From: Marinobacter halotolerans
GTDB taxonomy: Bacteria > Pseudomonadota > Gammaproteobacteria > Pseudomonadales > Oleiphilaceae
Assembly: GCF_008795985.1 (NCBI RefSeq)
Contig: NZ_VMHP01000001.1
Span: 1,116,001 to 1,180,000 of the forward strand
Reading direction: 5' to 3'
DNA length: 64,000 nucleotides
The first letter of the stretch is position 1. Each line of letters starts with the position of its first letter. The notes under the pieces are model-generated. The model made no database searches. It saw only the letters and a list, made by a program, of their open reading frames with translations, and had not been told where the DNA came from. Below are positions 47,523-49,127 of the stretch, piece by piece. A program made the translations under genes and the position numbers.

Positions 47523-48176
47523 GTGACGTCTGACACGACCGCCAAAAGCCTTTCGTTCAACAGTGCCCGCTTCCTCATCAGCGCCTCACGGCTCGATGAG
47601 TGTCCCGCCGATTACGGCGCGGAAGTAGCCTTTGCGGGGCGTTCGAACGCCGGTAAATCCAGCGCCATCAACACCATCACCACCAACGGCAAACTGGCGC
47701 GAACCAGTAAAACGCCGGGCCGCACGCGGCTGATCAACTTTTTCTCCCTGAACCGCGAGAACTGTCGTCTGGTGGATCTGCCCGGCTACGGCTATGCCAA
47801 AGTCTCCCGGGACATGAAGGACGACTGGCAAAAACATCTGGGCCACTACCTTAACGATCGTCGCTGCCTCCGCGGCCTGGTGCTGGTGATGGACATTCGC
47901 CACCCGCTCACCGATTTTGACCAAATGATGGTGGAATGGTGCGACCATAACAACCTACCGCTGATGATTCTTTGCACCAAAGCAGACAAGCTGAAGTTCG
48001 GTCAGGCTAAAACCGCGATGATGGGGATTGCCCGGAAACTGGAGGCGGTTGGCTGCCTCGAACACCTGGTGATGTTCTCCGCTACTTCCAAACGCGGGCT
48101 GGACGAAACCCGGGATGCCCTGACCGTCTGGCTGGAAGCTGAGTCGGAAGAAAGCGGTCACTCGACCGCAGAATAA
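47523..48176 (+). CDS. engB: Ribosome-assembly GTPase EngB (YsxC/YihA)
   Basis: This 217-residue GTPase starts at GTG 47523, after TAGGAA. G1 is GRSNAGKSS (39-47), G2 lies in TSKTPGRTR, G3 is DLPGYGYA, G4 is CTKADK and G5 is SATSKRG. It is needed for 50S subunit maturation. Its 3' side faces a structured element whose place matches Spot 42 in E. coli and ErsA in Pseudomonas. Confidence 0.95.
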   Translation: MTSDTTAKSLSFNSARFLISASRLDECPADYGAEVAFAGRSNAGKSSAINTITTNGKLARTSKTPGRTRLINFFSLNRENCRLVDLPGYGYAKVSRDMKDDWQKHLGHYLNDRRCLRGLVLVMDIRHPLTDFDQMMVEWCDHNNLPLMILCTKADKLKFGQAKTAMMGIARKLEAVGCLEHLVMFSATSKRGLDETRDALTVWLEAESEESGHSTAE

Positions 48177-48187
48177 AACAGAAAGAT

Positions 48188-48340
48188 AAAAAAACGGCCT
48201 GCCAAACTGACAGGCCGCGAAACGTCAGGGTTTGCGACGTACTAAAACCTGAGTTCTCTCACCGGGCTCTGCCGGCAAGCACTCCCAGGAAGACACCGGC
48301 GATGTCCGAATCGCGGGTGTCTGTATTGGTAGACACGGGG
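48188..48340 (-). ncRNA. Candidate small RNA at the Spot 42/ErsA locus
   Basis: The convergent gap after engB has a terminator reading on the minus strand: CGGCCTG (48217-48211) and CAGGCCG (48201-48195) with a run of seven U, ending about 12 nt from the engB stop. Upstream on that strand is an imperfect 32-nt palindrome (48291-48322; arms AGACACC/GGTGTCT and GCGAT/ATCGC). AGACAC at 48331-48336 can pair instead with the same GTGTCT, so two folds exclude each other. E. coli spf and Pseudomonas ersA lie beside engB in this orientation. No promoter is clear, so the 5' end is a guess and it could be the tetR 3' UTR. Confidence 0.5.
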
Positions 48341-48373
48341 TTTATGGAAAAGTTCCCGGCTTCTCCAGGATCC

Positions 48374-49063
48374 TCAGGATCCTTCATTCGCCGCCAGCGC
48401 GGCACGATCCGCGGCATCCGGCAGTTCCGGCCGGTATTTCTCCCGTAACGCCATGACCCGCTCGCGATAATCCGGCGTCAGGTAGGGAATTTCCAGTGTC
48501 AGCACCTGATAGATGCCCTGCTTCAGGTGGGTCAGTGTCAGCTCACCATCGCCCTGGCTGGCATGGGCCGTTTTCAGATAGGCCATCCAGTTGGTAATCA
48601 CCAGCCAGACGTTCAGGGACATGGCGGACCTGAGATCCTCATGCTGATAGTGAATGATGTCAGCTTCCGCCAGTTTCTGGAAAATGCGGCTGATTGCCAC
48701 CAGGCAGCGCTCGGTAAATTCACGGTAGTCCTCCCGCAGACGACGGTCACTGTCCAGCAGGTATTCCAGATCCCGGTGGAAGAACCGGTAACTCCACAGC
48801 CCGTCGAAGACCGACTCCAGGTAGAAGGTCAGATCTTCGAGGGTAATCGGCCGGCTTTCCGGAATATCAAGATAGAAATCCACCAGCTTTTCATACTCGA
48901 GGAAGATCTCGTAAATGATGTCTGACTTGTTCCGGAAGTGGTAATAGAGATTGCCGGGCGAAATTGCCAGGTGTGCCGCTATATGGTTGGTGGTCACATT
49001 CCGCTCTCCGCGCTCGTTAAAAAGCTCCAGACTGGACAGCAGGATCTTGTCTCTGGTTTTCAT
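48374..49063 (-). CDS. TetR-family repressor of the aldehyde dehydrogenase operon
   Basis: This 229-residue TetR protein has an N-terminal helix-turn-helix (RDKILLSSLELFNERGERNVTTNHIAAHLAISPGNLYYHFRNKSDI). The larger ligand domain (about 70-210) is rich in aromatic residues (SYRFFHRDLEYLLD). It faces the ALDH/Tat/GMC operon. A perfect 16-bp palindrome lies inside the opposing promoter, so it probably represses that operon and itself. The inducer may be a fatty aldehyde, alcohol or acyl-CoA, by inference from the operon. Confidence 0.88.
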   Translation of the reverse strand: MKTRDKILLSSLELFNERGERNVTTNHIAAHLAISPGNLYYHFRNKSDIIYEIFLEYEKLVDFYLDIPESRPITLEDLTFYLESVFDGLWSYRFFHRDLEYLLDSDRRLREDYREFTERCLVAISRIFQKLAEADIIHYQHEDLRSAMSLNVWLVITNWMAYLKTAHASQGDGELTLTHLKQGIYQVLTLEIPYLTPDYRERVMALREKYRPELPDAADRAALAANEGS

Positions 49064-49098: not shown

Positions 49099-49127
49099 TT
49101 GACTACCTAGAGTATATACTCTAATAA
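49099..49127 (+). promoter_or_regulatory. ALDH operon promoter with TetR operator inside
   Basis: TTGACT (49099-49104), 17-bp spacer, TAATAA (49122-49127) is a strong sigma70 promoter. The palindrome TAGAGTATATACTCTA (49108-49123) fills the spacer, so a bound repressor would block RNA polymerase. The palindrome is also about 45 bp upstream of the divergent tetR start. Confidence 0.75.

Follow-up and report, generated by a model that had tools for sequence, protein, structure and literature searches.

A conserved minus-strand unit beside engB in Marinobacter, probably the gene of a small RNA with a sigmaE/AlgU-type promoter at the ErsA/Spot 42 address

Does the gap between engB and a tetR gene in Marinobacter halotolerans contain the gene of a small regulatory RNA, and is such an RNA related to Spot 42 or ErsA? 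The question was raised by an original prediction, made from the letters of a 64,000-nt stretch of the genome (the window), which placed a structured, terminator-ended element in this 197-nt gap (contig C1 1,164,177-1,164,373), at the Spot 42/ErsA position. The features that the analysis connects to the locus are the following (window coordinates):

47523..48176, plus strand: engB (ysxC/yihA), encoding a GTPase (TIGR03598, 235.7 bits, above cut-off); convergent with the unit
48188..48194, minus strand: terminator T-tract (the U tail of the RNA), from the sequence
48188..48322, minus strand: predicted small RNA of ~130-136 nt (covariance model match 48189-48322, 89.1 bits)
48194..48218, minus strand: intrinsic terminator stem-loop, covarying in 6 of 10 pairs
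48222..48240, minus strand: near-invariant 19-nt core ACGTCGCAAACCCTGACGT, exact in 71 Marinobacter records
48248..48289, minus strand: hairpin 2 (CCTGGGAG...CTCAGG), from alignment A1; longer here than in most relatives
48291..48322, minus strand: hairpin 1 (the 32-nt palindrome), with two-sided changes in 8 of 10 pairs
48328..48333, minus strand: predicted -10 element TCTACC, 16-nt spacer from the -35
48331..48336, minus strand: segment GTGTCT, spacer end plus -10; predicted from its position to be untranscribed
48350..48355, minus strand: -35 element GAACTT of the predicted sigmaE/AlgU-type promoter, from the sequence
48374..49063, minus strand: gene of a TetR-type regulator (open reading frame), on the same strand as the unit and upstream of it

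We named tetR, aldehyde dehydrogenase and cytochrome c4 from reading the translations. As had been predicted, polA was absent beside engB; it was found ~0.99 Mb from the gap on the same contig (C1 2,152,020-2,154,737). Comparison between genomes showed a conserved unit with putative promoter elements, structure, terminator and synteny, and strongly supports the small-RNA reading: the minus-strand unit beside engB probably encodes a trans-acting small regulatory RNA under a sigmaE/AlgU-type promoter. Promoter, covariation, terminator and conservation thus all spoke for the predicted independent sRNA gene, but the alternative fold and the ErsA/Spot 42 membership proposed with it did not hold.

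The structural parts were present in the sequence as described: on the minus strand near the engB stop (48176) an intrinsic terminator with an 11-bp stem (48218-48194) and a T tail, the 32-nt palindrome at 48291-48322, and a third segment at 48331-48336 (GTGTCT, minus strand). The minus strand of the 153 nt between 48188 and 48340 folds at -63.2 kcal/mol (shuffled mean -47.6, z -3.5), and 0 of 200 shuffles fold as well. The check for compensatory changes across Marinobacter that had been suggested was run on a sequence-only alignment (A1) and recovered two-sided changes in 14 of the 32 pairs, as compared to 6.9 in shuffled controls (0 of 500 as high) and 4-8 in versions with the partners slid; 95.2% of the cells pair, against 90.2% when shuffled and at most 42.1% when slid. 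These two-sided changes are confined to hairpin 1, whose loop holds a CGGAC that is invariant in A1, and to the terminator. Hairpin 2 (6 pairs, 96.4% of cells paired) has zero two-sided changes in A1. The core ACGTCGCAAACCCTGACGT could possibly form a hairpin 3 with loop CAAACCC, the helix of which is invariant throughout A1, so that there are no pair changes to score. A model-fitted alignment of 74 matches (including one weak second match in L079) gave two-sided changes in 25 of 32 pairs, this alignment leaning toward the structure. The predicted RNA measures ~130 nt in M. halotolerans versus ~107-110 nt in most relatives.

Upstream of these hairpins lies a recurrent promoter-like arrangement. 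GAACT[TC] was present in 24/24 of the loci collected first, for which the motif served as anchor, and TC followed exactly 16 nt past the -35 in 23 of them and at 17 nt in the remaining one. Over 71 Marinobacter loci the pattern GAACT[TC]-N15/16-TC was found in 69 (N16 in 68), and the two non-fitting loci have GAACCT and GAAACT in the upstream stretch. The GAACTT-N16-TC arrangement is the sigmaE/AlgU pattern. The genome contains one RpoE/AlgU match above the family cut-off, GAACTA-N16-TC upstream of the rpoE-like gene itself, and a gene for Hfq. By sequence, the unit has the sigmaE-type promoter of its own and the U-tailed terminator that go with the class of sigmaE-dependent sRNAs. From the conserved promoter, the 5' end would lie at ~48320-48323 on the minus strand, within the range in which a 5' end had been anticipated (48260-48373). 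Because this predicted start falls at the base of the palindrome, the RNA would have the palindrome as its hairpin 1, and the promoter would include the third segment. In genome G015 the RNA is kept, yet no GAACTT was seen in the upstream stretch inspected; its divergent sRNA copy (L294) lies beside a tetR frame whose match holds one TGA, possibly a decaying locus.

The position of the third segment bears on the two exclusive folds of the original prediction, in which this segment replaces one arm of the hairpin as in a two-state RNA switch. The claim is true of the letters, the segment being complementary to the hairpin arm in the window, but conservation does not support it. The segment shares letters with the predicted -10 (48328-48333) and lies ahead of the expected transcript start, outside the predicted RNA. 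Full 6/6 pairing between segment and arm occurs in only 3 of 70 distinct loci (window included), below the mean of 6.7 obtained when the segments are shuffled among the loci, and pairing at 5/6 or better in 38 of 70, versus 36.3 shuffled. We rejected the switch, which is extremely improbable, because the arm pairing is not conserved and the segment falls within the predicted promoter.

The unit is conserved throughout the genus. A DNA search in 38 related genomes gave matches in 24 of the 25 same-genus and in 0 of the 13 other-genus genomes, and a covariance model built from these 24 loci matched 39 of 40 genus genomes, among them G015, which had escaped the DNA search. The 39 best matches had E values of 1.6e-6 or lower, and G685 was the one genome without a match. 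With stricter filters, in a search of the order, 12/12 genus genomes were matched. Outside the genus the class and order searches with the model yielded weak matches only, located away from engB; those in G208, G309 and G640 were rejected as homologues, since they fall in hairpin-rich DNA at other places and the fetched stretches contained no engB. In a sibling genus (G574), a diverged form of the unit (22.1 bits, E 0.0037) sits in the gap from engB to tetR. The exact 19-mer ACGTCGCAAACCCTGACGT was recovered from 71 records of an 84,980-species collection, all Marinobacter and once in each, and a plasmid search with 48100-48500 gave no match. In 19 genomes the RNA had a mean majority-base frequency of 0.85, rising to 0.97 for the core region, as compared to 0.47 for the promoter spacer and 0.48 for the 20 nt just upstream of the -35; engB codon positions 1, 2 and 3 scored 0.92, 0.96 and 0.69 in the same genomes.

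The drop in conservation upstream of the -35 matters for another reading, in which the unit amounts to no more than tetR's 3' UTR and terminator, from which a 3'-end RNA might be processed, and its structure serves to protect or end the tetR mRNA. The unit directly follows tetR on the same strand, with the two adjacent (<400 nt) in 71 of 71 Marinobacter records, and read-through from tetR into the unit is likely. However, a properly spaced promoter sits between the two, the 20 nt upstream of it are hardly conserved whereas the unit is, and in genome G680, which has no close tetR orthologue (best match 35%), the RNA persists, flanked by engB and the aldehyde dehydrogenase gene. Moreover, promoter-terminator units are found at this address without this tetR in genera outside the family. 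A mere 3' UTR is unlikely on these grounds. On its other side the unit has engB adjacent (<300 nt) in 55 of 71 records and 4.6-4.8 kb off in 8; in 8 records engB was not found in the fetched 8-kb stretch. Since engB has moved in some loci and G680 has no close tetR orthologue, the unit survives change on either side. The idea that the sRNA kept its engB side only needs correction as worded, tetR being adjacent in every record and engB in 55, although G680 does keep the engB side without a close tetR orthologue. An attenuating or insulating element between the convergent engB and tetR transcripts, with no regulatory RNA as product, would account for convergent genes and a strong terminator, but it leaves the invariant 19-nt core and the promoter unexplained, and the unit is retained where engB lies 4.6-4.8 kb away; we regard it as very improbable.

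Some variation in the surroundings may be recorded here. An insertion of ~4.6-4.8 kb parts the sRNA from engB in some Marinobacter, as in L172 (G017), where it lies between engB and tetR. In the insertion-type loci the sRNA terminator is followed by the palindrome TGTTACCGGTAACA, which resembles a LacI-family box. In L003, L007, L008, L010 and L013, engB is missing from the 3-kb stretch.

With the unit read as a probable sRNA gene, its kinship can be considered. The whole window gave 0 Rfam matches at gathering score, and the families RF01719 (ErsA), RF00021 (Spot 42), RF02232 (sX13) and RF02837 (anti-hemB) gave no match on 48100-48500 at E values up to 5. The same region had three sub-threshold matches, which were set aside: suhB/mmgR (18.9 of 41 bits), DUF3800-I (18 of 44.2) and RAGATH-32 (11.5 of 41.8). 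The first two were judged to rest mainly on the terminator. None of 12 genus genomes had an RF01719 match over the gathering cut-off of 50 bits and 11 lacked any match; G613 has two weak RF01719 matches, neither at its sRNA site. The stretches of G015, G680 and the sibling G574 gave no RF01719 match at E up to 0.5. Of the proposed link to Spot 42 and ErsA, the engB-side address and direction were borne out, but Rfam membership was not, as covariance searches with both families gave no match.

The comparison with the individual families is instructive. In E. coli, spf lies at the polA-engB address, and it is this sRNA address that the Marinobacter unit has in common with Spot 42. Spot 42 is reportedly repressed by cAMP-CRP and is not known as sigmaE-driven, in which it differs from the unit, as it does in the lacking covariance match. 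The likeness to ErsA (Pseudomon-1) goes further and includes engB-side address, direction, a promoter of the sigma22/AlgU (sigmaE) type as judged from the sequence pattern, a similar length and a terminator beside engB. The differences are that the Marinobacter RNA is without the polA neighbour, so that the ErsA location between polA and engB is not found in the window, that its core sequence is another one, and that CCCC before the terminator is absent in 22 of the 24 A1 rows; the CCCC counts in Marinobacter (2/24 A1 rows, 4/69 transcripts) also indicate that the C-rich unpaired stretches seen in the order's engB-side RNAs are mostly missing. ErsA is described as sigma22-dependent and as acting with the aid of Hfq in passages of PMC8395346 and PMC7565897, and passages among PMC5819304, PMC3349714, PMC8575079, PMC7264166, PMC3771888, PMC7565897, PMC7324555 and PMC8395346 recount that it was first reported as Spot 42's functional orthologue and that it acts with Hfq on algC and oprD; a table of PMC3349714 lists a transcript at engB with the note Spot42. 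sX13 of the Xanthomonadaceae is likewise a family-restricted sRNA at the polA address, of 115 nt and with three stem-loops according to passages of PMC3771888, where the polA locus is mentioned; it has C-rich loops and acts without Hfq, in which it would differ from the Marinobacter RNA, and its model had no match at the Marinobacter site. Anti-hemB of Burkholderia has no match in the window, and its sub-threshold overlap with engB-side predictions in two order genomes is a lead only. A search of the literature on Marinobacter sRNAs, with coverage mostly of papers outside subscription, had no paper on this RNA among the entries listed. We conclude from the sequence comparison that the ErsA/Spot 42 address in Marinobacter would hold an sRNA family that is new and has no Rfam entry.

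Whether sRNAs are encoded at the polA locus in further bacteria is a question raised in a passage of PMC3771888. The order offers an answer. Cytochrome c4, engB and polA occur in that order in 12 of 18 stretches from other families (L154-L171), and the Marinobacter locus for that reason looks like the ancestral address minus polA. engB was found in 186 of 194 order genomes, and 82 engB genomes from outside the genus were taken (the 30 best-scoring, 12 picked and the 40 next in the list), of which 2 were too short and 80 were used, one (G574) being in the same family. We surveyed these for GAACT[ATC]-N15-17-TC running toward engB within 300 nt of the engB stop; six loci with engB-polA gaps of at most 103 nt were kept in the counts, and the pattern misses the units of L153 and L154. 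The promoter pattern toward engB was recovered in 21 of 36 polA-adjacent gaps and in 10 of 44 others, as compared to 2/36 and 1/44 on the opposite strand and 0.76 and 1.22 expected from dinucleotide shuffles. The GAACTA form joined the pattern only after some of these sequences had been seen, and the strict GAACT[TC] form gave 14/36 and 6/44 (shuffles: 0.66 and 1.04). The polA/engB address thus often encodes a putative sRNA with a sigmaE-type promoter in this order.

Above-cut-off matches to RF01719 itself were restricted to family f16 and occurred in 12 of 293 order genomes; in G448 the match lies inside the engB-polA gap. Sub-cut-off ErsA matches that run toward engB were found within ~0.6 kb of it in G458, G463, G494, G538, G566 and G569, in the last as a tandem beside engB (G569:C1:7304805-7304919 and 7305018-7305128). 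Weak ErsA, sX13 and anti-hemB matches, all below the Rfam thresholds, overlap the predicted units of L127, L191, L205 and L185; like the sub-cut-off ErsA matches near engB, these are no more than leads. The weak anti-hemB matches (L185 533-612, L205 402-474) overlap predicted engB-side sRNAs and hint at a wider sharing of the address. A search of E. coli genomes with part of L154 matched only polA.

Whether the Marinobacter RNA descends from these units is a question of ancestry only, and either answer is compatible with the sRNA model. That a sigmaE-promoted sRNA arose or arrived at the address independently, not descending from ErsA-type RNAs, has close to an even chance in our estimation. 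It agrees with the Rfam searches, which gave no ErsA match at the site, and with the rarity of CCCC before the terminator, as this occurs in 28 of the 31 order RNAs predicted by the survey. It also agrees with local alignments of 4 Marinobacter RNAs to 5 order RNAs with the terminators removed, in which all 20 comparisons stayed at shuffle level, the lowest shuffle fraction being 0.142. Of the four positive controls, three succeeded (0.002 each) and L127 versus L191 did not (0.11). On the other hand, address, direction, promoter type and size are all shared with the other units of the order. We also make a tentative proposal, to which we give a chance somewhat short of even: a single orthologous sRNA gene driven by sigmaE may have had its home on the engB side of polA since ancient times, and in this gene address, direction, promoter and terminator were inherited and the pairing sequence was replaced wholesale. 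Marinobacter would be the clearest branch, having lost the C-rich loops and the polA neighbour and fixed a new, near-invariant 19-nt core. On the sRNA reading itself, whatever the ancestry, the unit forms a separate sequence family, retained at the engB-polA address when the tetR-aldehyde dehydrogenase pair had taken the place of polA as neighbour. Because address, promoter and pairing sequence come apart in Marinobacter, the genus can serve to test whether an sRNA gene keeps its input while changing its output.

For the sRNA itself, we infer transcription, sigmaE dependence, Hfq binding and base pairing from the features described above. Envelope stress would free the sigmaE/AlgU factor, and polymerase would start at ~48320-48323 on the minus strand and end beside engB, at the U-rich terminator. 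Probably together with Hfq, the RNA would base-pair with mRNAs via conserved unpaired stretches, for which the core ACGTCGCAAACCCTGACGT is the candidate region, and the pairing would alter translation or stability of these mRNAs. The unit is in this way a candidate envelope-stress regulator for the marine genus Marinobacter. Target searches covered the complement of the core and the starts of four genes, and neither the core-complement nor the duplex searches in genus genomes returned a convincing conserved target. A search of 17 genus genomes for the wobble complement of the core, TYRGGGTTTGYG, gave 112 sites, the sRNA gene itself accounting for 16; the 96 non-self sites versus 53 for the reversed pattern may reflect composition. 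Among the 20 examined of the 23 listed non-self TCAGGGTTTGCG sites, there was no recurrence at a start codon from one genome to another. Predicted duplexes with the starts of tetR, aldehyde dehydrogenase, engB and cytochrome c (24, 24, 19 and 19 loci) were no better than those of shuffled RNA. Three of the TCAGGGTTTGCG sites (L251, L260 and L265) seem to belong to one and the same gene, close to where a long open frame ends. Finally, a perfect 16-nt palindrome, TAGAGTATATACTCTA, is located at 49108-49123, between tetR and the divergent aldehyde dehydrogenase gene, and is likely the operator of the TetR-type regulator.
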